Shown here: one piece after another, positions 1,376 to 15,702 of the stretch
Numbering within the stretch: position 1 is the first letter of the stretch
How the letters are laid out: every line of letters starts with the position of its first letter
NCBI RefSeq assembly: GCF_003986935.1
Contig: NZ_RJZE01000004.1
Location: 62,001 to 126,000, forward strand
Source: Paraburkholderia kururiensis JCM 10599 = LMG 19447
GTDB taxonomy: Bacteria; Pseudomonadota; Gammaproteobacteria; Burkholderiales; Burkholderiaceae
Length of the DNA stretch: 64,000 nucleotides
Direction: 5' to 3'
The notes under the pieces: model-generated
What the model was told of the DNA's origin: nothing
What the model saw: the letters and a program-made list of their open reading frames with translations, nothing else
Databases searched by the model: none
Made by a program: the position numbers and the translations under genes

Positions 1376-4273
1376 ATGTTGACGACGAAGAAGAACGCCG
1401 GGCAATACGGCGGTAATGAGAGCAGGTGCCGGGGGGCTCATTTTCAGCGCGCGGCTGCGGGCTTTTCGGCCGCATTTTTCATTGCGCTGGCTGTCAATGC
1501 CGTGCCGTCGCGTGTGCTCGCTCAAGAAGCGCAGGTGACGGCGGCCGGTGGCGAATCTCGCGCCCACGCAAGCACGCAGGAAAGCAAGGAAAGCCCGCGT
1601 CCGAACATTGCCTTCTTCGACGGTGCCGATCCGCCCGTCGATTTGCTGCAGGCATTCGACGCCGTGGTGCTCGACCCCTCGCGCGGCTTCGATCCCGCCG
1701 CGCACCCCCTGCCGCACACGCTCTGGCTGGCCCGAACCGACACGGCGAACGCGGGCACGCAGGTTCTTCCCTACGTCGAGTCGCTCTGGCAGAAAGGCTA
1801 TCGCGGCTTTCTGCTCGACACGCCCGCCGCCGTCGAAGCCTTCGACGCCATTCACGCCGCGCATCCCGAAGCGCGCCTCATCATCGGCGGCAGTCATCCG
1901 TTGCAGGCCGCGCGGCCTCATGCTGGGGCGGCCGGCGGCCTTCGTGCGGGCGCGGCCGGCGGCCTTCGTGCGAGCGCGGCCGGCGGCCTGTATGCCGTGG
2001 TGGGCGGCTCGCTAGTGAAGGGCGGCGCCTCCGCGGACAACGCCTCTACGGACAACGCATCGGCCGGCACAACAGACCAGCCCCCCACGCTCGCCGAGGC
2101 ACGCGCCTTCACCGAACAAACCGGCGTGCCCGTCATCTCCATCGATTACTGCCAGCGTACCGACCGCGCCTGCGCACGCGACACGGCGGCGAAGGCCCTC
2201 GCGGCCGGCGTGCTGCCCTACGCGACGGACCCGGCGCGCGACATCGTGGGCATCGGCGCCATCGAGGTGCTGCCGCGCAAGGTGCTCGTCGTGCAGGACC
2301 GCGACCCGAAGGCGAATCTCGACATCACGCCGGGCGTGGACTATGTGTCGACGCCGCTTAACTACCTGGGCTACGACGTCGAGTTCGCCGACTTCAACGC
2401 GCCGCTGCCGCGCGACGTGACGCCCGACCGCTACGCGGGCGTCGTGGTGTGGATCACCGGCAACTCGGTGCCGAACCCCGTGCAGTGGGAGCGCTGGCTC
2501 GGCGCGCGCATTGCCGACCACGTGAAGGTGGCGGTGTTCGGCCACTTCGGCTTCGACGCCGCCAACGACATGGGCCCGCAGCTCGACCTGCTGCCGGTGG
2601 CCGGCAGGCCGGCCGGCGCGCTTTCGGTGGTGGTACGCGACCCGATGATGGGCTTCGAAGTGGACCCGCGTGCCGATCCGCGCGACCTCGCAGGCCTGCG
2701 CGCGGGCGCGAAAAGCCGGCCGCTGCTGCGGCTGTCGGCGGGCGACGGCGTGGTCTTCGATCAGGCCGCCATCACGCCGTGGGGCGGCTTTACGCTCGAC
2801 CCCTACGCCGTCTACACGCTCGATGCCATTTCGCAGGACCGCTGGGCCATCAATCCGATGGCGTTCCTCAAGGACGCGCTGCGCCTGTCGCCCATGCCGT
2901 CGCCCAACGTGACCACCGAAAACGGCCGGCGCCTTTTCATGTCGCACGTGGACGGCGACGGTTTTGCCTCGCGCACCGAGTTTCCCGGCCCCGACTTCTC
3001 GGGCGAAGCGCTCTACGAGCGCATCTTCACGAAGTACAAGGTGCCGATGACGCTCTCCGTCATCGAAGGCGAAGTGGGTCCCGCGGGCCTGCATCCCGAC
3101 ATCTCGCCGCGGCTCGAACAGATCGCGCGCAAGATGTTCGCGCTGCCGTACGTGGAGATCGGCTCGCACACGTACTCGCATCCGTTCCGCTGGGACTGGC
3201 TGGACCTCGTCACGGGCAAGCGCATCGACAACGGCGAATCCGACGACGGCTTCTCGCTCAACATCCCAGGCTACAAGTTCAACATCGACCGCGAGATCAC
3301 CGGCACCATCGACTACATCAACTCGCGGCTCGCGCCCCCCGGCAAGCGCACCATGGTGCTGCAGTGGCCTGGCGACTGCCAGCCGCCCGGCGTGATTGTG
3401 CGCAAGGTCTACGCGGCACACGTCTACAACATCAACGGCGGCGACACGATCATCACGAAGTCGGCGCCCAGCTGGACGAACATTGCGCCCATCGGCGTGG
3501 AGAAGGGCACGGGGCCTGACTCGTTCCAGCTCTACGCACCCAACCAGGACGAGAACGTCTACACGAACGACTGGCTCGGCCCGTTCTACGGCTTCACGCG
3601 CGTGCTCGAAACGTTCGACATGACGGATCGCCCGTATCGCTTCAAGCCCATCGACGTCTACTACCACATGTACAGCGGCACGAAGATCGCGTCGCTGCGG
3701 GCGCTCGACCAGATTTTCGCGGCGGTCTTGAAGCAACCCGTGCTGCCCGTGCATATCACCGACTACGCGCGCAAGGCGCTCGACTGGCGCACTTTCGCGG
3801 TGGCGCGCGAGGTGGACGGCAGCGGCTGGCGCGTGCGCGGCAACGGCGAAGTGCGCGAGCTGCGCTGGCCGCAGACGCAGGCGCCGGACCTCGCCACGGC
3901 CACGGGCGTGACGGGCTATAGCGACGGACCGGACGGCACCTACGTGCACATCGACGGCGGTAGCGCGCGCTTTGCGTTCGAACCCGTGGGCACTCAAAGC
4001 GGCACGGATGCAGGCCCGCGCGCGCTGCCCTACATCGCCGAGGCCAACGGCTTCGTGCGCAACTTCCGCCGCACCGCGAACGGCATGACCTTCGACTTCG
4101 GCGGCTACTACGAACCGTTCGTGCGCATTGCCAACGGTGCGCGCTGCACGGCGAGCGTCGCGGGCCGCGCGGTGGCCGCACGGCGCGACGGGGCGTTCCT
4201 GCGCTTCGATACGCCGGGCGTGGCGGGCGAAACGGTGGACTATCAACCCGTGAGCGTGACCTGTGGCAACTGA
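1376..4273 (+). CDS. pelA: PelA: Pel polysaccharide deacetylase with a degenerate hydrolase domain
   Basis: PelA is the periplasmic enzyme that de-N-acetylates Pel exopolysaccharide before export; in Pseudomonas aeruginosa it also has an endo-alpha-1,4-galactosaminidase domain (GH166). Length 965 residues fits (948 there). A signal-like hydrophobic stretch at about 28-49 ends near VLAQE. The deacetylase half keeps its metal site: HVDGDG with Asp526/Asp528 and the HxxxH pair His598/His602. The N-terminal hydrolase half (about 76-300) looks inactive. About 45 residues found in the stand-alone homologue at 14683 are missing, its FLDTLDS motif reads LLDTPAA (146-152), and the position of the catalytic Glu is Gly210/Gly211. 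A three-fold eight-residue repeat (183-205) sits just before that site. The ATG at 1376 has an AGGGCAGG-like site very close to it. The frame overlaps pelB by 11 bases. Confidence 0.93.
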   Translation: MLTTKKNAGQYGGNESRCRGAHFQRAAAGFSAAFFIALAVNAVPSRVLAQEAQVTAAGGESRAHASTQESKESPRPNIAFFDGADPPVDLLQAFDAVVLDPSRGFDPAAHPLPHTLWLARTDTANAGTQVLPYVESLWQKGYRGFLLDTPAAVEAFDAIHAAHPEARLIIGGSHPLQAARPHAGAAGGLRAGAAGGLRASAAGGLYAVVGGSLVKGGASADNASTDNASAGTTDQPPTLAEARAFTEQTGVPVISIDYCQRTDRACARDTAAKALAAGVLPYATDPARDIVGIGAIEVLPRKVLVVQDRDPKANLDITPGVDYVSTPLNYLGYDVEFADFNAPLPRDVTPDRYAGVVVWITGNSVPNPVQWERWLGARIADHVKVAVFGHFGFDAANDMGPQLDLLPVAGRPAGALSVVVRDPMMGFEVDPRADPRDLAGLRAGAKSRPLLRLSAGDGVVFDQAAITPWGGFTLDPYAVYTLDAISQDRWAINPMAFLKDALRLSPMPSPNVTTENGRRLFMSHVDGDGFASRTEFPGPDFSGEALYERIFTKYKVPMTLSVIEGEVGPAGLHPDISPRLEQIARKMFALPYVEIGSHTYSHPFRWDWLDLVTGKRIDNGESDDGFSLNIPGYKFNIDREITGTIDYINSRLAPPGKRTMVLQWPGDCQPPGVIVRKVYAAHVYNINGGDTIITKSAPSWTNIAPIGVEKGTGPDSFQLYAPNQDENVYTNDWLGPFYGFTRVLETFDMTDRPYRFKPIDVYYHMYSGTKIASLRALDQIFAAVLKQPVLPVHITDYARKALDWRTFAVAREVDGSGWRVRGNGEVRELRWPQTQAPDLATATGVTGYSDGPDGTYVHIDGGSARFAFEPVGTQSGTDAGPRALPYIAEANGFVRNFRRTANGMTFDFGGYYEPFVRIANGARCTASVAGRAVAARRDGAFLRFDTPGVAGETVDYQPVSVTCGN
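1922..1990. repeat. 24-bp in-frame tandem repeat inside pelA
   Basis: Nearly three copies of a 24-base unit encode AGAAGGLR, AGAAGGLR and ASAAGGL (PelA residues 183-205). The array lies inside the decayed hydrolase domain, just before the position where active homologues carry the catalytic glutamate. Copy-number change would keep the reading frame. Confidence 0.85.
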
Positions 4274-7200
4274 GCGCTCATCCCTTCGTCCCGTCCAGGG
4301 CGCGCATGGCGCCGTGCAGGTGCGCGCGGCGTTGCCCGCGAAGCGCCCGCGCATCGCACCGCTCTGGCTCGTGCTGCTGATGGCCGGCGTGGTGGTGCTC
4401 ACGCTCTACGCCGCGTGGCCGGGCGGCGGCCTGCGGGCGCGCGTGGCCACGTCGCCCACGAGCGCGCTGAGCGTCGCCTATCTCGAAGCGTGGCTGCGTG
4501 TACAGCCCGACAATGAGGAGTTCCTGCAACTGCTCGGCACGCAGTATCGCGAAGTGGGGCGGCTTGACGACGCGCTTCGCGTCGCGCAGCGCATGGCGCG
4601 CTCGCAGAGTCCCGACATGCGGCGCGCGGCGCTGCTGCTGCGCCTTGGCATCGACGAGCAGAAAGCCTTTGCGTACCCCGAAGGCAGCCGCGAGCGCGAG
4701 GAAGCGCTCGAACAGGTGCGCGAGGAACTGCACGCCGCCGCGGCCATGCAATGGGACACGGACGACCTGCAACACCTCGCGTCGCGCGCCGCGGCCACGG
4801 GCACGCCCGCGCTCGCACGCGATCTGTATGCGCGGCTTTCGCAGCAGGACGCGGCGGGGCGCCGCCAGTGGGATGAAGCGCTGGTCCGCTACGCTGTGGA
4901 AACGGGCGCGTATCGCGAAGCGGCCGACGCGTACTTCCGCCTGCAAGACAGCGCGACGACGCTCGACGCGCGGCGCAGCGCATTCCTCTCCGGCATTCGT
5001 ACGCTGCAGGCGGGCAATCTGCTCGCCGATGCGCTCGAGGCGGCCCAGCAACACGCGGGCGCGCTCGAAAACGACAAAGCGACGCTGATCGTGCTGCTCA
5101 ACCTGGCGCGTGCCGCGCAGCGGCCGGATCTCGTGGACCGTTATGCGAAGGCGCTGGCGAAATACGCGGCAGCGCGGCCATTGCCATTGCCGGAAGACAC
5201 GCAGCGTGCGGCGCGGTTTGCTTACATGGATGGCCCGGTCGTGGTGGCGAACGCGCGCGGCATGCGCGAGCCGGCGGGCCTGTACGTCGCAGCGTGGCGT
5301 GAGGGATTCGGCGCGCGCATCGTGCGGGTAGCGGCGTCGGCACCGGCACCGCAGGCCTCGGCCGCAGCGCCGGCTTCGGCTGCGTCCGCCAACACAGCCG
5401 CCACTGCAGCCGCCAACACAGCCGCCACCGCAGCCGCCACGGCAGCCGCAAAGCCCGCCGCTTCCAGCGCCCCCGGCTCGACCGACGACGTCGCGAGCCT
5501 CGTCTTCACCTCGTTTGTCGAATCGCGCGATCTCGACAACGCGCAGAAGATCGCCGAACAACAGGTGGCGCGGCATCCCGATTCGGCGCTGTGGTTAAAG
5601 CGCCTCGCGCAGGTGGCCGAGTGGAACCACGCGCCCGCGCTCGCGCTGAAGACGTGGCTTGCCTACGCGCGCACCTCAAACGATGCCGAGGCGTGGCAGA
5701 CCGTGCAGCGCATGGCGCCCATGCTCAACGACGACGAAGCGTACCTCGCCGCCATGATCCACGCGTCGGCCGCCGCGCCCGCCGACATGAAGCTCGTGGA
5801 CGCCGTGACCTCCACCTACGAGCGGCTGGGCCGCCCCGAGGACGGGCTCGCGTTCCTGCGCGCCCATCCGCGCGACGGCGCGGGCGATGCCGTTGACGAA
5901 CGCATCGCCACGCTCGCCGAGCGCGCGGGCCATGACGATCAGGCGCTCGCCGTCTACCGGCAGCTGCTGGCGCGTCATCCGGGCAACACGCTCTATGCCG
6001 TGCGGGCCGCGAGCCTGCTCTTTCGCCGCAGCGACTTCGCGGGTGCCTACGCGACGCTGCAAAAGTCGTACGACGCGGCGAAAGACGACGACGTGCTCTA
6101 CTGGCGCAACTACGCGCAGGTCGCGCGGCTGCTGCAAAAGGACAGCGGCGCGAACGACGCCTACCGCCATCTGCTCGCGGGCGGCAAGGAAAGCCCCGAC
6201 GACCTCGCCGCGATGACCTACTTCTACAGCGCCTGGCCGCTCGATGCGGGCCGCACCGCCGAGCTTCAGTACCGGCGCGACGGCACCGTGCGCGCGCTGC
6301 AGCTCGCGCTCTTCAACTACACGAGTGCGCGTGCCTGGGACCGCGCGGCCGCGCTGCTCGCAAGCCTCACGCCGAAGCAGCGCGAGCAGGCCGAAGCGTC
6401 GGTGGAATTTCTCACCACGCGCGCCGAGTACGAACGGCAGATCGACCACGTCGCGGACGCACTACGCGACCTCGAACGCGCGGTCACGCTGCCGGGCGCC
6501 ACGGACGACGCCCGCGCCGCGCTCTTGTGGACGCTCGTCGACGACGGCAACGACACCGCGCTCAAGAGCGCGCGCTGGCAGTGGTGCGAGAACGCGCAGC
6601 AGTTGCCCGCGCTGTGGGGACCGTGCGCGGCGGCCCTGATGCGCATGGACCGACCTGTGGCGGCATTGCGTCTGTTGCGCCTGCAATCGGCCACGATGCA
6701 GCGCGACCCGCTCTGGCTGCTCACCTACGCCGATGCCGAGGAACAGGCGGGGCACCCCGACCTCGCGCGCTCCATTCGCCGTCATGTGTGGCGCCGGCTG
6801 CAGCGCGAGAACCCGGCGACGCTCGCGGCAACCGGGCAGGTGGCGAAGACCGGGCTGCTGCAGGACGAAGACATGCGCGAGCAGTTGAGCGGCCGGCGCG
6901 TGACGCTCGCGCAGACCTTCGAGCGTGCCGATGTTTCGCTGGCGCTGCTCGATGACCTGATTGCGTCGGACGCGGGCCGCGCCGGGAGCGGCAAGGGCGG
7001 CAACGGCCAGCCGCAGCCGGAGCAGCGCACGCTGCTGGGCAACACGCCGGGCCTGCTGCCGTTGCATCCGGCGAACACGGGCGGCAAAGCAGCCGCTCAA
7101 CCCGTCGACCCCCAACGCCTGAAGTCGGCGGTCGCCAAGGACGTGGCGCTCGCGTGGGCGCTCTCGCAGGAAGCGAATCCGCTTGCCAAGCGCTGGCTCG

Positions 7201-8375
7201 CGCAGCAGTATGCGAACCGGCTCGCGCAGCCTGCCGACGCACGGCTCACGCTCGCGCTCGCCGACGGCGACACGGCCACGATGGAACGTCTGCTCGACGA
7301 GGAGGGCGGCAAGCTGCCCGTCACGTCGCGCATCGACGCGTCGATTGCCGTGGATCGTCCCACCGATGCCGAGCAGCTCGCCTTCAATGCGCTCGAAGGC
7401 GCGCCGGACAACACGGACTACCAGACGCGCCTGACCGACACGGCGCTCGCCTGGCCGCAATCCATCGACGCCGACATCTCGAACCACATCGAGCATCCGC
7501 TCGACTACACGGAGCTAGCTCTGTCGGCGAGCCGCAAGCTGACGGGGCGCTACCTCGTGGGCGTGACGAGCGTGCAGCGCTTCCAGCATTCGGCCGACGA
7601 GACCCAGCTCGTGAACGTGCCCGCGCAGGACCGCTCGATCGGCTTCTACGTGGAGCGGCGCACCAACGACACGTCGGTCACGCTCACGGGCGGCCGGCGC
7701 GAAGGGCTCGACAGCTTCTATACGGCCAACGTCGAGGCGGAAGTGGGCCGCAACTCGCCCGTCACCTTCACCGTGCGCGCGGGCCGCAACCAGACGGCGA
7801 CCGAATCGCAGGCGCTGCTGGTGGGCGGCATGAAGGACAACGTGGCCGGCACGCTGCTCTGGAACGTCACGCCGCGCTGGTACGTGTCGGGCAACGTGGA
7901 GGCCGACCGCTTCTACAGCCAGGCGCGCAACTACCTGGGCAGCGGCGTGCTGACGACCGGCGAGATCGGCTACCGCATTCGCACCACGTACCCCGACTAC
8001 ACGCTGCGCGTGGTCGGCACGCGCGGCAGCTACGGCGCAAGCGGCGCCGCGGACGCGCTGATTTCGCGGCTCCTGCCCGCTACGGCCGGGCCCGCGACGG
8101 CCGCGACCTTCGTGCCCCAGACCTACGCGCAGTACGGCTTCTTCGCCAGTGTGGGCGGCGCACTGCGCGAGCAGTACACGCACGCGTGGCGGCCGTTTGC
8201 GGAAGTGGGCATCGTCCACGACTCGCTGCAGGGCTGGGGCCCGCAACTGAGCGCGGGCGTGGCGGGCAGTGTGTTCGGCGGCGACCATGCCGCTGTCTAC
8301 GTGGAGTATCAGCGCGTGTCGCAACTCGGCACTTCGGTGCGGGTGATCGGCGGGCGCTACAGCTGGTTCTATTGA
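4263..8375 (+). CDS. pelB: PelB: outer-membrane export porin with TPR superhelix
   Basis: PelB links the periplasmic modification step to export: an N-terminal membrane anchor, a long tetratricopeptide scaffold that binds PelA, and a C-terminal beta-barrel through which Pel leaves the cell. Here there is one TM helix at about residues 36-55, TPR-like helical pairs from about 65 to 1070, and a beta-rich tail from about 1090 that ends in aromatic residues (SWFY), as outer-membrane barrels do. At 1370 residues it is longer than the P. aeruginosa protein (1193). Part of the extra length is an Ala/Thr-rich linker at about 360-400 made of AATAA repeats. The start is GTG at 4263, inside the end of pelA. 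Confidence 0.93.
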   Translation: MATERSSLRPVQGAHGAVQVRAALPAKRPRIAPLWLVLLMAGVVVLTLYAAWPGGGLRARVATSPTSALSVAYLEAWLRVQPDNEEFLQLLGTQYREVGRLDDALRVAQRMARSQSPDMRRAALLLRLGIDEQKAFAYPEGSREREEALEQVREELHAAAAMQWDTDDLQHLASRAAATGTPALARDLYARLSQQDAAGRRQWDEALVRYAVETGAYREAADAYFRLQDSATTLDARRSAFLSGIRTLQAGNLLADALEAAQQHAGALENDKATLIVLLNLARAAQRPDLVDRYAKALAKYAAARPLPLPEDTQRAARFAYMDGPVVVANARGMREPAGLYVAAWREGFGARIVRVAASAPAPQASAAAPASAASANTAATAAANTAATAAATAAAKPAASSAPGSTDDVASLVFTSFVESRDLDNAQKIAEQQVARHPDSALWLKRLAQVAEWNHAPALALKTWLAYARTSNDAEAWQTVQRMAPMLNDDEAYLAAMIHASAAAPADMKLVDAVTSTYERLGRPEDGLAFLRAHPRDGAGDAVDERIATLAERAGHDDQALAVYRQLLARHPGNTLYAVRAASLLFRRSDFAGAYATLQKSYDAAKDDDVLYWRNYAQVARLLQKDSGANDAYRHLLAGGKESPDDLAAMTYFYSAWPLDAGRTAELQYRRDGTVRALQLALFNYTSARAWDRAAALLASLTPKQREQAEASVEFLTTRAEYERQIDHVADALRDLERAVTLPGATDDARAALLWTLVDDGNDTALKSARWQWCENAQQLPALWGPCAAALMRMDRPVAALRLLRLQSATMQRDPLWLLTYADAEEQAGHPDLARSIRRHVWRRLQRENPATLAATGQVAKTGLLQDEDMREQLSGRRVTLAQTFERADVSLALLDDLIASDAGRAGSGKGGNGQPQPEQRTLLGNTPGLLPLHPANTGGKAAAQPVDPQRLKSAVAKDVALAWALSQEANPLAKRWLAQQYANRLAQPADARLTLALADGDTATMERLLDEEGGKLPVTSRIDASIAVDRPTDAEQLAFNALEGAPDNTDYQTRLTDTALAWPQSIDADISNHIEHPLDYTELALSASRKLTGRYLVGVTSVQRFQHSADETQLVNVPAQDRSIGFYVERRTNDTSVTLTGGRREGLDSFYTANVEAEVGRNSPVTFTVRAGRNQTATESQALLVGGMKDNVAGTLLWNVTPRWYVSGNVEADRFYSQARNYLGSGVLTTGEIGYRIRTTYPDYTLRVVGTRGSYGASGAADALISRLLPATAGPATAATFVPQTYAQYGFFASVGGALREQYTHAWRPFAEVGIVHDSLQGWGPQLSAGVAGSVFGGDHAAVYVEYQRVSQLGTSVRVIGGRYSWFY

Positions 8376-8516
8376 GGCAGGCGAGCGGAGCGGCGAAGGC
8401 GAAGGTTCGCGGGACCGCTCCGGCAGAAACTGGCAGAAACGGGCAGACCCGGGCAGACCGTCGAACGGCGCTGCCCGCGAGCCGGCCAGATGCGAAGTAT
8501 CTTGAGGAGAATATCA

Positions 8517-9086
8517 ATGAAAGAAGAACGTGGTTCGTGGTTCGCGCGGTTTGTTCCGATGGTCTCGCGCGCGTCGTTGTTCGTCGCCGCGGCGGCACTG
8601 ATCGCCGCGTGCGGCACCGTCCGGCAGACCAGCGCGCCGGCTCTTTCGGCACGCGATGCAGTGGCTGTGGCGTCTATCGCCAACTACACTGAAACGCCCG
8701 CGGCGGGTCGCAGCACCGAAGCTATCGCGGCCAGCGTGCTGCGCGCCAACGGCTTGACCGACGTGCGCGTGGCGCCCGCCGGCACGGGCGGCGGCGCAGC
8801 GCTCTTCGATACGGCGCAGCGCGCGGACATGGACCAGCAGCTCGAATGGGCGCGCTCGCAGCAGGTCCGCTACGTGCTGACGGGCGCGGTGGAAGAGTGG
8901 CGCTACAAGGCCGGCGTGGACGGCGAGCCCGTGGTGGGCCTCACGTTCGAACTCGTCGACGTGCAGTCGGGCCACATCGTGTGGAGTTCGACGGGTTCGA
9001 AGAGCGGCTGGAGCCGTTCGAGCCTCGCGAGCGTGGCGACGTCGCTGATCGGCAACGTGCTCTCGCCGCTCTCGGTGCGCCGTTGA
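8517..9086 (+). CDS. pelC: PelC: outer-membrane lipoprotein of the Pel exporter
   Basis: PelC forms a lipoprotein ring on the periplasmic face of the outer membrane that funnels Pel toward the PelB barrel. I chose ATG 8517 because GAGGAG lies eight bases upstream; an in-frame ATG at 8490 lacks such a site. The 189-residue product has a signal peptide ending in a lipobox (LIAAC, lipidated Cys32). Its mature region has the PelC/TolB-N-like alternating pattern, including VRYVLTGAVEEW and GHIVWSS. It follows pelB after about 140 bases, where a 10-12 bp repeat (about 8423-8460, GGCAGAAAC-like units) is found. Confidence 0.92.
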   Translation: MKEERGSWFARFVPMVSRASLFVAAAALIAACGTVRQTSAPALSARDAVAVASIANYTETPAAGRSTEAIAASVLRANGLTDVRVAPAGTGGGAALFDTAQRADMDQQLEWARSQQVRYVLTGAVEEWRYKAGVDGEPVVGLTFELVDVQSGHIVWSSTGSKSGWSRSSLASVATSLIGNVLSPLSVRR

Positions 9087-9198
9087 TCTTGCTTCTCGTG
9101 GGACGTTGCGCGGTGCCTCATATGCCACATGAGGTGGCACATCAGCCGGTGCCGCGCGGCGCACGCCCCGTTGTCCGATCGCTCACAGGAAATCAGCC

Positions 9199-10656
9199 GT
9201 GAACAGCGCTGCTGCCTCAACCGAAACCCGCGAGTCCAGGGCGCGTAGCGCCAACCCGCTGGGCAACCTCAGCCCCGTGCGCCGCTTCGTGGCGCCCGCG
9301 GTGCCCGGCCCGTTCGCCATCGTCGAGACGGTGCTGTTCATGGCGATCGCGATCGGCCTCGCCTGGGCGTACGACCACGCCGACCCGCTGATGCTGCACG
9401 CCGGCTTCGCGTGGCTGTGGCTCGCGCCGCTCGTCGTCGCGCTGCGCTACGGCACCTTGCTGGGGCTGCTCGCGGGTGGCGTGGTGGTGGCGGCCTGGTA
9501 CGGGCTCTATCCGCGCGGCAGCGCGTGGCCGCTCATGTACTTCACGGGCGGCTTCATCCAGAGCATCGTGGCGGGCCATTTCGGCGACACGTGGGGCAGC
9601 CGCGCGGCCCGTTCGCGCGCACTCAACGACTACCTGAACGACCGGCTCGTCGCGATCACGAACAGCCACTATCTGATGCGCCTCTCGCACGAGCGCCTGG
9701 AAAAGGACCTGCTCTCGAAGCCCACCACGCTGCGCGATTCCATTACCGAACTGCGCCGGCTGTCGGTGGCCCAGTCGGTGGGGCAGTCGAACGGCGGGGG
9801 GCAGCCGGGCGTTGCGCCGGCAGTTCGTGCGGACGCGCTGCCCGGTGCGCAGCCGCTGCTCGAATTCGTCGCACAGGCGTGCCAGATCGAAATCGCCGCG
9901 CTGCATCCCGTGCGCGGCGGCCGTATCGCGGAGCAGGCGGCGGCGCGCATCGGCGAGCCGTTCGATCTGGACATGCACGACGAACTCGTCGCGCACGCGG
10001 TCGAAACGCTGGGCGTGGCGCATCTGAAGAGCGTGCAGAACGGCACGAACGGGGAAGCCACCATCACGAGCACGCGCTACGTGGTCTGCGCGCCCGTGGT
10101 CTCCGCCGACGGCGAACTCATCGCGCTCGTCGTCGTGAAGCGCATGCCGTTCCTCTCGCTCAACTACGACAACCTCCAGCTGCTGCTCGTGCTGCTCGGC
10201 TACTACGCGGACGGCGTGGAGCACACGAGCCTCGTGCAGGGCGTGCTGGACGCCGTGCCGGGCTGCCCCTACGACTTCGCGCTCGACCTCGCGCGGCTTG
10301 CGCGCCTCAAGCGTTCGGCGGGCATCGATTCGTCGCTCGTCGCGCTCACGTTCATGCGCGACGAAGCGGGCGAGTCGCTCTTCGAGCACGTCATGCGCCG
10401 GCGCCGCGCGCTCGACGTGATGTGGCCGGTGCAGAGCAAAGACCGCTCCGTGCTCATCAACCTGATGCCGGCAACGGACACCACGGGTATCGACGGCTAC
10501 CTCGCGCGCATCGAGGCGAGCCTGAAGGCCCAGTTCGATACGGACCTCGAAGGCGCACGCATTGGCGTGCATACGCTGCATCTGGAACACGGCGATCCGG
10601 GGCCGGCGCTCGGGCGTCTTCTGAAACGGGCGGGCGTCGATGCCGAAGCCCGCTGA
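9199..10656 (+). CDS. pelD: PelD: inner-membrane c-di-GMP receptor for Pel synthesis
   Basis: PelD turns Pel polymerisation on when cyclic di-GMP binds. This 485-residue protein has hydrophobic helices between about 38 and 128, a connecting helix, a GAF domain at about 215-340 and a degenerate GGDEF domain at about 345-480. The GGDEF active site is absent, but the inhibitory-site-like RxxD is present as Arg403-Ala-Leu-Asp406, with a second arginine (Arg437) at the spacing expected from the P. aeruginosa binding site. Ligand binding is therefore likely retained. The start is GTG with AGGA ten bases upstream. Its 3' end overlaps pelE by 17 bases. Confidence 0.92.
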   Translation: MNSAAASTETRESRARSANPLGNLSPVRRFVAPAVPGPFAIVETVLFMAIAIGLAWAYDHADPLMLHAGFAWLWLAPLVVALRYGTLLGLLAGGVVVAAWYGLYPRGSAWPLMYFTGGFIQSIVAGHFGDTWGSRAARSRALNDYLNDRLVAITNSHYLMRLSHERLEKDLLSKPTTLRDSITELRRLSVAQSVGQSNGGGQPGVAPAVRADALPGAQPLLEFVAQACQIEIAALHPVRGGRIAEQAAARIGEPFDLDMHDELVAHAVETLGVAHLKSVQNGTNGEATITSTRYVVCAPVVSADGELIALVVVKRMPFLSLNYDNLQLLLVLLGYYADGVEHTSLVQGVLDAVPGCPYDFALDLARLARLKRSAGIDSSLVALTFMRDEAGESLFEHVMRRRRALDVMWPVQSKDRSVLINLMPATDTTGIDGYLARIEASLKAQFDTDLEGARIGVHTLHLEHGDPGPALGRLLKRAGVDAEAR

Positions 10657-11653
10657 TCTCGCCATGACGGTATTCGCCGTCGTCGTTGCGCTCGTCGCGC
10701 AATTCGTGGCGCTGGCCGCGGTGCTGCGTCCGCCTGCGGGCATCGATCCGCTGCTCGCGTTCGTGCCGCTGCAACTCGCCGCGGGCCTGATCCAGGCCTT
10801 CGCGCTGCGCCGCGTATTGCCGGCGCGCTACCGCGAGCCGCGCACGGCGGCCATCGTGCTGCTGTGGGCGCTCTGCACGTTCGTGCCGCTCGCGGGCGGC
10901 CTCGTCGTGCTGGCAAGCGCGATCTGGGCCATCTGGCTGCCGGCTTCGCACAAGAGCGAGCGCCTGGCTGAAGTGCCGCGTCCCGAGTTCGTTTCGTATC
11001 TCGTCTCGCGCGTCACGCACGGCGGCGGCGCGCGCCTGCAGGCGCGCCTCGTCAATACGCGCGTGGCCTCGGACGACCGGCTCTCCGCGCTCGTCGCGAT
11101 CCAGGGCATGCCCACGCGCACCACGGGCACGCTGCTGCGCGAGCTGCTGGCCGATCCGCTCGAAGACGTGCGGCTCATCGCGTACGGCACGCTCGACAAG
11201 GCCGAGAACGAAATCATGCAGCAGATCTTCGAGGCGTCGAACACGCTGCAAACAGCCACGAGCGGCACGGAGCGCCATGCGCTGAACCGTCACCTCGCCG
11301 AGCTCTATTTCGAACTCATCTATCAGAATCTCGTGCAGGGCGCCGTGTATCGCCACACGCTCGAACAGGCGGACCGCCATGCCGAAGCGGCGCTTGCGAG
11401 CGACGGCCGCGATGCCGCGCTGTGGCTGATTCGCGGACGGCTCGCGCTCGCTAACGGCAAGCCCGATGAAGCGGCGGCCTACATCGAACTCGCGCAACAA
11501 CTCGGCTTTCCGCGCGAACGCCTGATTCCGTGGCTGGCCGAGGCCGCCTACCTGCGCGGCGACTACCGGCAGGTGACCGCGCTCGTCGCCTCGCTCGGCC
11601 ATGCCGCGGCGCTGCCGACGTTGAAACCCGTTGCGAGGTACTGGCTGTCATGA
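10640..11653 (+). CDS. pelE: PelE: inner-membrane TPR partner of PelD/PelF/PelG
   Basis: PelE is part of the inner-membrane synthase complex PelDEFG. The 337-residue product starts with two or three hydrophobic helices (about 8-35, 38-60 and 68-95) and continues as a soluble alpha-helical domain with TPR-like repeats (for example HLAELYFELIYQNLVQGA and ALWLIRGRLALANGKPDEA). It overlaps the end of pelD, and its stop shares an ATGA with the pelF start, so the three are probably translationally coupled. Confidence 0.9.
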   Translation: MPKPADLAMTVFAVVVALVAQFVALAAVLRPPAGIDPLLAFVPLQLAAGLIQAFALRRVLPARYREPRTAAIVLLWALCTFVPLAGGLVVLASAIWAIWLPASHKSERLAEVPRPEFVSYLVSRVTHGGGARLQARLVNTRVASDDRLSALVAIQGMPTRTTGTLLRELLADPLEDVRLIAYGTLDKAENEIMQQIFEASNTLQTATSGTERHALNRHLAELYFELIYQNLVQGAVYRHTLEQADRHAEAALASDGRDAALWLIRGRLALANGKPDEAAAYIELAQQLGFPRERLIPWLAEAAYLRGDYRQVTALVASLGHAAALPTLKPVARYWLS

Positions 11654-13257
11654 AAGAGTCGCTCAAACGCCGCGCCGATGCCGTGGACGTCTGCCTGCTG
11701 CTGGAAGGCACGTTTCCGTTCGTGCGCGGCGGCGTGTCGAGCTGGGTCAACGAGATGCTGCGCGCGTACCCGTCCATTCGCTTCGGCATCGTGTTCATCG
11801 GCAGCCGCCCGGAAGACTATGCGGGCGCGGCCTATGCGCTGCCCGACAACGTCGTGCACTTCGAGGCGCATTACCTCTACGAAACGGCGGCAGCCGAGGC
11901 GCTCGCCACGAACGCCGTGCCCGGCGACGCGGCGGCCTTCGCGCGCTCCGCGGAATTGCACGCGGCCCTGCGCCACGGCGACGACGCCGGCTCGCTGCTG
12001 GTCCACATGATGCCGATGCTGGGCGAGCACGGCGCGCTCAACGAAGCGCAGTTCACCTCGAGCCGGCGCGCGTGGGACTACATCGTCGAGCAGTACAACA
12101 CGCACTGCACGGACCCGTCGTTCACCGACTACTTCTGGACCGTGCGCATCATGCACAAGCCGCTGTGGCTCCTCGCGCGCGTGGCGGAAAAGCTGGTGCC
12201 GGCGCGCGTCTATCACACGGTGTCCACGGGCTATGCCGGTTTTCTGGGCGCGCTCATGCACTACCGCACGGGCCGGCCGCTGCTGGTGTCCGAGCACGGC
12301 ATCTATACGAAGGAACGCAAGATCGACCTGCTGCAAAGCGAATGGATTCGCGACAACCGCGGCGCGTTCGAGCGCGACATCTCGCAGATCAGCTACTTCC
12401 GCGAACTCTGGGTTCGCTTTTTCAGCACGCTCGGCAAGCTTGCCTACGACGCCGCCGACGACATCGTCGCGCTCTACGAGACCAACCGCCAGCGCCAGAT
12501 TGCGGACGGTGCGCCCGCCGAGCGCACGCAGAACATTCCGAACGGCGTGGACGTGGAAGGCCTCGCGCCGCTCGTCGCGAAGCGCCAGGGGGGCCCGCAT
12601 CGCGTGGTGGGGCTGATTGGCCGCGTGGTGCCCATCAAGGACATCAAGACTTTCATTCGCGCCATCTTCATCGCGTCGCGCAGCATGCCGGAGATCGAAG
12701 GCTGGATCATCGGGCCCGAGGAAGAGGACAAGGCGTACGCACTCGAATGCCGGGCGCTCGTCGAGAGTCTGGGGCTGGCTTCGACGGTGAAGTTCCTGGG
12801 CTTTCAGCGCATTGACGACGTGTTGCCGAAGGTGGACGTGATTGCGCTCAGCTCGATCAGCGAGGCGCTGCCGCTCGTGGTGCTGGAAGGCTTCGCCGCA
12901 GGCGTGCCGTCGATCACGACGGACGTGGGCTCGTGCCGCCAGCTGATCGAAGGCATGGACGAGGAAGACCGCGCGCTCGGCGTAGCCGGAGCCGTGGTGC
13001 CCATCGCGAACCCCGCCGCATTTGCAACCGCCGTGCTCGATCTCTTCGCCGACGACGCGCGCTGGCAGGCGGCGCAACAAGCGGGGCTCGCGCGCGTGCG
13101 CCGTTATTACACGAAGCCGCAGATGATCGACCGTTACCGGGCGCTTTACGAACGCTTGTCCGCGGCACCGGATCGCGGACGCGCGTCCGGTTCGGCGGCC
13201 CGCGCCGCAGGCTGCCCCGTGCACGGCGGCGCTTCGCACGGGCAGGAGGCACGCTAA
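11650..13257 (+). CDS. pelF: PelF: cytosolic GT4 glycosyltransferase for Pel
   Basis: PelF polymerises the Pel chain from UDP-linked N-acetylhexosamine in the cytoplasm. I place the start at ATG 11650 in the ATGA overlap with pelE, giving 535 residues; an upstream in-frame ATG lies inside pelE. The N-terminal Rossmann half carries the conserved LEGTFPFVRGGVSSWV motif near residue 18. The C-terminal GT-B half carries IGRVVPIKDIKTF and the EX7E motif of family 4 (Glu405 and Glu413 in SEALPLVVLEGF). The end overlaps pelG by one base (TAATG). Confidence 0.93.
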   Translation: MKESLKRRADAVDVCLLLEGTFPFVRGGVSSWVNEMLRAYPSIRFGIVFIGSRPEDYAGAAYALPDNVVHFEAHYLYETAAAEALATNAVPGDAAAFARSAELHAALRHGDDAGSLLVHMMPMLGEHGALNEAQFTSSRRAWDYIVEQYNTHCTDPSFTDYFWTVRIMHKPLWLLARVAEKLVPARVYHTVSTGYAGFLGALMHYRTGRPLLVSEHGIYTKERKIDLLQSEWIRDNRGAFERDISQISYFRELWVRFFSTLGKLAYDAADDIVALYETNRQRQIADGAPAERTQNIPNGVDVEGLAPLVAKRQGGPHRVVGLIGRVVPIKDIKTFIRAIFIASRSMPEIEGWIIGPEEEDKAYALECRALVESLGLASTVKFLGFQRIDDVLPKVDVIALSSISEALPLVVLEGFAAGVPSITTDVGSCRQLIEGMDEEDRALGVAGAVVPIANPAAFATAVLDLFADDARWQAAQQAGLARVRRYYTKPQMIDRYRALYERLSAAPDRGRASGSAARAAGCPVHGGASHGQEAR

Positions 13258-14630
13258 TGGCCGGCATTGGTTTCGAACTGCGCAAGATCATGAAGCGCGA
13301 GACGCTCACGGGCGTCGCGCGTGCGTACGCGTATGCGGGGTTGATCAGCTCGGGCCCGCTGATTCTCTCGATCGTGGGCATTCTCGTGATCGGCGTGATG
13401 AGCCTGGCGTTCGTGATTCCGCAATACGCGATCGTGCAGTTTCAGGTGTCCGTCACCTATCTGATCGCGTTCAGCCTGATTCTCACGGGGCCGCTGCAGC
13501 TTTCGTTCACGCGCTTCATCTCCGACCGCCTCTTCGAGAAGCGCCGCGACCTCGTGCTCTCGAACTACAACGGCGTCGTGCTGGTGGCCACGCTCGCCGC
13601 GGGCGTGATCGGCGTGGCCGTGATGGCGATCGGTTTTCGCGCCGAGCCGCTCGGCTACCGGCTCTTGATGGTGGCGGGCTTCGTGCTGCTCAGCAACATC
13701 TGGATCGCGGTGATCTTTCTGTCGAGCGTGAAGCAGTACCGCGAGATTCTGCTGGCGTTCTTCGTGGGCTATGCGTGCACGGTGGGCTTTGCGCTGATGC
13801 TGAACCGTCACGGCATTGTCGGGCTGCTGGGCGGTTTCGTGGCGGGGCACCTCGTGCTGCTGGGCGGGCTCTCGGGGCTTATCTATCGCAACTTCGTGAG
13901 CCCGCGGTTGATCTCGTTCGAAGTGTTCGAGCGCCGCTACGCGTACCCGCGCCTCGCACTCGTGGGGCTGCTCTTCAACCTTGGCGTGTGGATCGACAAG
14001 CTGATGTTCTGGTACGCGCCGGCTACGGGCTCGGTCGTGATCGGGCCGCTGCATGCGTCGGTGATCTACGACATTCCGGTGTTCATCGCCTACGTGTGCG
14101 TGATGCCGGGCATGGCGGCGTTTCTCGTGCGCATCGAGGCGGATTTCGTCGAATACTACGACGCGTTCTACGACGCCGTGCGCAGCGGCGCCACGCTGCA
14201 CCACATCAGCGAGATGCGCGACATGATGGTGACGAGCGTGCGCGCGGGCCTCTACGAGATCATCAAGGTGCAGGCCGTGGTGCTGCTGCTCATCTTCGCG
14301 TTCGGCGCGGGGCTGCTGGAAGAGCTGCACATTTCGGTGCTCTACATGCCGCTTCTGATCGTGGACGTGGTGGCCGCGAGCCTTCAGGTGCTGTTCCTCG
14401 GGCTCCTGAACGTCTTCTTCTACCTCGACATGCGGCGCACGGTGCTGAGGCTCTGTGCGGCGTTCGTCGTGCTGAACGGTGTGCTTACGGCCATCACGCT
14501 CCGGCTTTCGCCGAACACGTATGGCTACGGCTTCGCCTTCGCGCTGATGATTCTCGTGATTGCGGCGGTGCAATTGCTGGACCGCAAGTTCGCGGCGCTC
14601 GAATATGAAACGTACATGCTGCGGGCGTGA
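13257..14630 (+). CDS. pelG: PelG: multi-pass inner-membrane Pel transporter
   Basis: PelG is the flippase-like membrane subunit thought to move the growing Pel chain across the inner membrane with PelD, PelE and PelF. The 457-residue product matches the family length (456 in P. aeruginosa) and begins with the characteristic MAGIGFELRKI. About twelve hydrophobic helices follow through the whole length. The start at 13257 shares the TAATG junction with pelF and has AGGAGG about 11 bases before it (GCAGGAGGCACGCTAATG). This is the last canonical pel gene. Confidence 0.93.
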   Translation: MAGIGFELRKIMKRETLTGVARAYAYAGLISSGPLILSIVGILVIGVMSLAFVIPQYAIVQFQVSVTYLIAFSLILTGPLQLSFTRFISDRLFEKRRDLVLSNYNGVVLVATLAAGVIGVAVMAIGFRAEPLGYRLLMVAGFVLLSNIWIAVIFLSSVKQYREILLAFFVGYACTVGFALMLNRHGIVGLLGGFVAGHLVLLGGLSGLIYRNFVSPRLISFEVFERRYAYPRLALVGLLFNLGVWIDKLMFWYAPATGSVVIGPLHASVIYDIPVFIAYVCVMPGMAAFLVRIEADFVEYYDAFYDAVRSGATLHHISEMRDMMVTSVRAGLYEIIKVQAVVLLLIFAFGAGLLEELHISVLYMPLLIVDVVAASLQVLFLGLLNVFFYLDMRRTVLRLCAAFVVLNGVLTAITLRLSPNTYGYGFAFALMILVIAAVQLLDRKFAALEYETYMLRA

Positions 14631-14682: not shown

Positions 14683-15702
14683 ATGCGTTGGCTGATGTGC
14701 GTCCCGAGGCGTGTCCTGATGCGCGTCTTCGGGCGACGCCTCGTTGGTCACGCGATGGCGTGCGGGGCCGGGCTCGTGGCGAGCGCCGCGGTGGCCGTTG
14801 CCCAGCCTGGTCCGGCTGGCGGTGCAGCGGGCGCCACGGCGGCGCAGCCCGAAGCGTCGGTCGGCAGCGCGAGTGCGCCGCTGCCTTCGATCGCGCTCTA
14901 CTACGGCGTGCAACCGCCCGTGGACCAGCTCGCCGCATTCGACACGGTGGTGGTGGAGCCGGACAGCGGCTTCGATCCGGCGGCACAGCGCACGCCGTGC
15001 ACGCAATGGTTCGCGTACGTGAGCGTAGGCGAGGTGACGAAGGAGCGCAGCTACTACACGGCCGTGCCGAAGCACTGGTTGCTGGCGAGCAATACCGTGT
15101 GGGAATCGACGGTGGTGGACCAGAGCGCGCCGGGCTGGCCCGCGTTCTATCTGAAGCACGTGATCGCGCCGCTCTGGGCGCGCGGGTATCGCGGCTTCTT
15201 TCTCGATACGCTGGATTCGTATCAACTTGCCGCGAAGACCGACGCGGCGCGCGCGCGGCAGCAGGCGGGGCTCGTGGCCGTGGTGCGCGCCATCAAGGCC
15301 CGCTATCCCGATGCGCGGCTCGTTTTCAATCGCGGCTTCGAGATCCTGCCGCAGGTGCACGGCCTCGTGTATGCCGTGGCGTTCGAGTCGCTTTTCAGCG
15401 GCTGGGATCAGGCGAAGAAGCGCTATGTCGCGGTGCCGGCCGACGACCGCGCATGGCTGCTCGGGCAGGCCCGCACGATTCGCGAGCGGTACGGCCTGCC
15501 GGTGATATCGATCGATTACTGCGATCCGCAGGACCGTCAATGCGCGCGCGACACAGTGGCGAAGATTCGCGACGCGGGGCTTGTGCCGTATGTGACGGAT
15601 GGCGGGCTTACGACGGTGGGCGTCGGTGTGCCGGGGCACTGCGCTGTAGGCGCTGCGTCGGAGACACCTTCGGCCACGCCCGCGAGCGCGCCATTGCCCT
15701 GA
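14683..15702 (+). CDS. Stand-alone secreted PelA-like endo-galactosaminidase (GH114/GH166 fold)
   Basis: This 339-residue protein is homologous to the hydrolase half of PelA and lies 52 bases after pelG in the same direction, as if an eighth gene of the operon. A signal peptide ends near AVAVA/QP (about 40). The hydrolase domain (about 68-315) is intact where PelA is not: YVSVGEV (112-118), GFFLDTLDS with Asp175 and Asp178, FNRGFE, and AFESLFSGW with Glu235, which I align with the catalytic Glu218 of P. aeruginosa PelA. It has no deacetylase domain. The start is uncertain: ATG 14683 has no clear ribosome site, and ATG 14719 has GAGG upstream and also keeps the signal peptide. Expected role: cutting Pel in the periplasm or outside the cell. 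Confidence 0.85.
   Translation: MRWLMCVPRRVLMRVFGRRLVGHAMACGAGLVASAAVAVAQPGPAGGAAGATAAQPEASVGSASAPLPSIALYYGVQPPVDQLAAFDTVVVEPDSGFDPAAQRTPCTQWFAYVSVGEVTKERSYYTAVPKHWLLASNTVWESTVVDQSAPGWPAFYLKHVIAPLWARGYRGFFLDTLDSYQLAAKTDAARARQQAGLVAVVRAIKARYPDARLVFNRGFEILPQVHGLVYAVAFESLFSGWDQAKKRYVAVPADDRAWLLGQARTIRERYGLPVISIDYCDPQDRQCARDTVAKIRDAGLVPYVTDGGLTTVGVGVPGHCAVGAASETPSATPASAPLP

Follow-up and report, generated by a model that had tools for sequence, protein, structure and literature searches.

The window that we analysed, a stretch of 64,000 nucleotides from Paraburkholderia kururiensis (contig NZ_RJZE01000004.1, positions 62,001 to 126,000), carries a complete pel operon in which pelA to pelG (1376-14630) lie on the plus strand and are followed by a gene, here referred to as S, that encodes a free-standing protein of the PelA hydrolase type (Table 1). 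S starts 52 bp past the stop codon of pelG, and a search of the gap between these two genes for promoter- or terminator-like sites found none.

Table 1. Genes and domains of the pel operon in the window.
Feature	Position	Strand	Remarks
pelA	1376..4273	+	965 aa; signal peptide, pseudo-hydrolase barrel (~75-300), remaining PelA including CE21-type deacetylase
Degenerate GH166/GH114-type hydrolase domain in pelA	1589..2302	+	Alignments, AlphaFold2 model; no Pfam GH114 match
Deacetylase motifs HVDGDG and SHTYSH in pelA	2945..3184	+	Intact; H524, D526 and D528 in the first motif, H598 and H602 in the second; residue roles per PMC12022489
pelB	4263..8375	+	TPR repeats and outer-membrane barrel; Pfam B-barrel_PelB_C 9e-74
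pelC	8490..9086	+	Position and similarity across pel operons; no match in Pfam search
pelD	9199..10656	+	Pfam PelD_GGDEF 1.4e-46
pelE	10640..11653	+	TPR
pelF	11530..13257	+	Glycosyltransferase; Pfam DUF3492 and GT1 domains
pelG	12933..14630	+	Pfam PelG 2.9e-150
S, free-standing PelA-type hydrolase gene	14683..15702	+	339 aa from ATG 14683; Pfam Glyco_hydro_114 8e-21; PDB 5tcb 6e-47

The PelA protein encoded in the window matches PDB entry 9cgy, the PelA protein of P. thermotolerans (E=5.6e-136), while an NCBIfam search with it gave no match. An AlphaFold2 model computed with 36 relatives (pLDDT 82, pTM 0.84) displays the four-domain architecture of PelA; in Foldseek it aligned to 9cgy with a TM score of 0.85 by target and to 5tcb with 0.56. 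The residues that characterise the CE21 deacetylases (the catalytic base, the metal triad and H526, E723 and H761 in the numbering of P. aeruginosa) are all in place: D526, D528, H598 and H602 correspond to D528, D530, H600 and H604 of P. aeruginosa PelA, and H524, E726 and H764 to H526, E723 and H761. These positions are invariant or almost so across the PelA proteins that we compared, and the alignment confirms the initial annotation, which had listed the two aspartates and two histidines as kept, and extends it by three residues.

A different picture emerges for the N-terminal hydrolase-like domain (window positions 1600-2280, PelA residues ~75-302), with which a Pfam search (residues ~75-300) yielded no GH114 match. 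The initial annotation had regarded this domain as apparently dead in catalysis on account of a FLDTLDS motif changed to LLDTPAA and a catalytic glutamate replaced by Gly210/Gly211. Both changes are borne out by alignment to P. aeruginosa PelA and to S: LLDTPAA occupies residues 146-152, and G211, next to G210, aligns with the acid/base residue E218, which forms the catalytic pair with D160 in the literature (E218 in PMC9894940; PMC12054363 prints Asp160/Glu223). The nucleophile D160, a point that the initial annotation did not raise, is retained as D148, and the equivalent of D260 as D257, so that the pocket may still contain two acidic side chains. A retained acidic pair had been named in advance as counter-evidence to a dead domain; two such residues are indeed present, but the equivalent of E218 is a glycine, and the D160/E218 pair of GH166 enzymes is hence incomplete. 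The beta-3 insertion with its aromatic lid is likewise missing, although the (beta/alpha)8 barrel fold of this family is recovered in the model and in its best PDB matches. According to PMC12054363, this insertion is presumed to be important in ligand binding, and one of its loops shuts the active site off.

The spacing between the 'FDxVV' and 'LDT' motifs (strands 2-4) is 53 residues in the window PelA protein versus 88 in S and 91 in P. aeruginosa. The previously proposed loss of about 45 residues is therefore roughly right in total, but it falls into two pieces, a block of ~35 residues that represents the beta-3 insertion and the helix that follows FLDT. The length is restored by a short peptide repeat in the loop after the LDT region: in-frame units of ~27 bp at window positions 1918-1995 encode an AAGGLRAG-like peptide, which lengthens the loop before strand 6 and is absent from a relative with 92% identity (L004). 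A frameshift or sequencing artefact can be ruled out, since the deletion is common to 45 further PelA proteins and dN/dS of the domain is low.

The S protein of the window, in turn, possesses every active-site residue that we checked, i.e., the equivalents of E218, D160, D260, E101 and W126, and with them the Asp/Glu pair and the beta-3 insertion of GH166/GH114-type enzymes; an NCBIfam search returned only a sub-threshold TM1410-type match. Its N-terminus is signal-like, and a hydrophobic, signal-like N-terminus is found in nearly all S proteins. Those of two Trinickia-group loci (L062 and L204) carry a lipobox-like LAALGC/LASFGC motif, which suggests that these variants might be lipoproteins.

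For a wider comparison we combined a PelF scan of named genomes, a PelA search of the genus and searches with PelG in samples at the family, order and class level; 100 operon regions were fetched, and duplicates were removed before counting. This yielded 46 degenerate PelA proteins (that of the window and 45 others, among them the frame-broken L159). Residues 104-131, including W126, are missing in all 46, and R200 is changed in 45 of them, while E218, D160, D163, R200 and D260 are invariant in 76/76 intact PelA proteins and in 57/57 S proteins. The tyrosine preceding the SVGE motif, found in essentially all intact sequences, is an arginine in 91% of the degenerate group (R120 in the window). 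Column 218 holds D, P, E, G, Q or A, and most members have changed from Glu; the loss of this residue as the sole defining mark of the group was ruled out, because a glutamate still aligns in 6/46 proteins, three of which also retain D160. What the group has lost in common is consequently the beta-3 insertion together with the active-site residues around it, not Glu218 alone.

The distribution of S mirrors that of the PelA variants. S is absent from all 76 operons whose PelA hydrolase is intact, but it lies in or beside 43 of the 45 whose PelA hydrolase is degenerate (Fisher p 8e-31, not corrected for relatedness; the co-occurrence stems mainly from one clade, and the small p value thus overstates the independent evidence). 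Both exceptions (L189 and L194) have an intact hydrolase elsewhere in the genome: the first in a second operon with intact PelA (L188), the second as an S gene on another replicon, adjoining a permease gene. The comparison across the Burkholderiaceae that had been proposed as a check agrees with a hydrolase site dismantled throughout the clade. S usually follows pelG, but it can also be situated directly upstream of pelA (L196 and L197) or on another replicon. Locus L058 of P. xenovorans LB400 is among those that combine a degenerate PelA with S. L069 was rejected as a further exception, as S is present on its contig immediately upstream of pelA (L197); the reading of L154 as a split gene was set aside, because its two open reading frames lie in one frame and are separated by a stop codon. 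At L121, PelA has no hydrolase domain; S was not found in the fetched stretch near the contig end, and one GH114-family gene is present elsewhere in this genome.

When the deacetylase part is used for a tree, the 46 degenerate PelA proteins all group in a single clade (SH-aLRT 100) with the intact Ralstonia PelA as its sister. Its members occur in Paraburkholderia, Burkholderia, Caballeronia, Trinickia, Robbsia, Pandoraea, Chromobacterium and relatives. Some Burkholderiaceae possess a second type of pel operon (L172-L174, L187, L188, L190, L193, L205-L210), in part alongside the degenerate type, that encodes an intact PelA; its hydrolase domain falls among the S proteins in the hydrolase tree, whereas its deacetylase part branches elsewhere, a pattern that may reflect a past exchange of domains between PelA paralogues. 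This placement blurs the picture of where S came from; a single origin was not rejected, and S as several lineages was discarded because the nesting is non-significant (AU p 0.39).

Among class-level relatives, two loci (L129 and L130) encode a PelA without any hydrolase domain next to a free-standing, S-like GH114-type gene, so that the two activities seem to have become separated independently here; L131 resembles them, except that pelA was not detected. A Burkholderia pel locus (L214; G793:C1:2545000-2564900) has a hydrolase-only protein ahead of pelB, an oppositely oriented pelDEFG and a second GH114-type gene close by (1207-2448); the region fetched here yielded no PelA deacetylase. Clusters of PelD/E/F/G in Pandoraea- and Cupriavidus-group genomes (L110, L166-L168, L180, L182, L183, L211) contain neither a detectable PelA nor a full-length PelB within the fetched regions; in L180, a gene that is GalE-like by its N-terminal motif lies just after pelG.

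We consider it probable, at roughly 0.8, that the PelA protein of this clade is a Pel deacetylase with a conserved pseudo-glycosidase scaffold, that S trims Pel, and that this split arose once. According to this proposal, the split would have occurred in the ancestor of the degenerate clade, with Pel hydrolysis residing in a separate enzyme, secreted or periplasmic, that is the product of the operon's last gene; the PelA active site, including the substrate-clamping beta-3 insertion, would have decayed thereafter, and the N-terminal barrel would have been kept as a scaffold beside a working deacetylase. Sequence, models and comparative genomics together support the proposition of the initial annotation that PelA is a deacetylase only and that hydrolysis has been handed to another protein; the absence of PelA hydrolase activity, the action of S towards Pel and the function of the barrel as a scaffold are what we infer from them.

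The N-terminal domain might instead be roleless and merely decaying, kept only because its reading frame continues into the deacetylase. Compared with the remainder of PelA, it shows weaker conservation and, in most pairs, a somewhat higher dN/dS, and it tolerates a species-specific expansion of a loop repeat. Nevertheless, dN/dS of informative pairs is far below 1 throughout this deep clade (domain, 0.10-0.27; rest of PelA, 0.03-0.22; S, 0.05-0.26), and many residues are invariant; the domain is under purifying selection. Moreover, eight barrel strands are still modelled (78-81, 96-99, 116-120, 144-147, 167-170, 205-210, 253-258 and 280-284), and the isolated domain again finds 9cgy and 5tcb as its nearest PDB folds. 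The eight-stranded model and the low dN/dS indicate that the barrel has been retained while its chemistry has apparently been dropped. Since the domain can be dispensed with, as in the PelA proteins of L129, L130 and Gram-positive bacteria, and yet is kept by the degenerate clade, we regard mere decay as unlikely.

Rather improbable, too, is that the domain still works, weakly or in an altered manner, as a hydrolase or transglycosylase that uses D148 with D257 or another acidic residue, with S as an additional enzyme. The D160 equivalent persists in 39/46 members of the clade and an acidic residue at 260 in 46/46, some carry D or E at 218, and purifying selection would suit an active domain. 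Such chemistry would have to proceed, however, without the beta-3 insertion, W126, R200, D163 and the SVGE motif, in the window protein with a glycine at 218, and next to an S gene that never accompanies an intact PelA. The replacement of the tyrosine before SVGE also weighs against it. That S acts on a substrate other than Pel and merely hitch-hiked in one lineage would accord with linkage by descent in a single clade and with its variable position, but it is very improbable given that S is a close homologue of a characterised PelA hydrolase with identical active-site residues, is absent beside intact PelA and is kept in the genome even where it has moved (L194, L196, L197).

With a retained scaffold as the preferred reading, a tentative possibility is that the barrel has taken on a new job that accounts for its retention, for example as a platform on which S or PelB docks, or as a module that guides Pel or senses its length. 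If so, a separable subunit acting in trans would control the cutting of Pel in this clade. Fixed changes specific to the clade, among them that from Tyr to Arg at the end of strand 3 (R120 in the window), fit a reworked pocket.

The natural separation of the two PelA activities would offer a clean genetic system for the role of each, and the S group would supply Pel hydrolases that are already free-standing and, by prediction, secreted. It also follows that many PelA proteins of Burkholderiaceae now annotated as bifunctional probably carry the wrong label. The PNAG systems offer a parallel, in that the deacetylase PgaB has a second, hydrolase-type domain which IcaB lacks (partly after PMC5933820); the polymer and the protein families differ from those of PelA.

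The PelA proteins of P. aeruginosa and P. thermotolerans (9cgy, 5tcb; CE21 and GH166) share with the window protein the domain architecture and the deacetylase active site, but they are bifunctional and unite both activities in one polypeptide. In P. aeruginosa, the hydrolase gives rise to the low-molecular-weight Pel that is secreted, and it keeps the adherent biomass in check (PMC9894940); the balance between hydrolase and deacetylase is proposed to be tuned by PelB (PMC12022489). The hydrolase active-site residues were described as conserved in the full-length PelA homologues aligned in the latter study; judged by their sequences, the dozens of species in the degenerate clade depart from this generalisation. 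We found no published account of the Burkholderia-type split in the open-access literature (subscription papers and preprints lay outside the scope of this search). The closest counterpart is the pelDEA(DA)FG cluster of B. cereus with its divergent pelAH gene (BCE_5582), whose product is an active PelA-type hydrolase (PMC7112168). In both cases, deacetylase and hydrolase are separate genes of one locus, with the activities deduced from sequence in ours. PelA(DA) of B. cereus, however, lacks any hydrolase domain and pelAH is divergently transcribed, whereas the Burkholderia-type protein keeps its dead domain under selection and the hydrolase gene usually sits in the operon after pelG. The split described here is thus best read as a new, Gram-negative variant of the division of labour known from Bacillus cereus.
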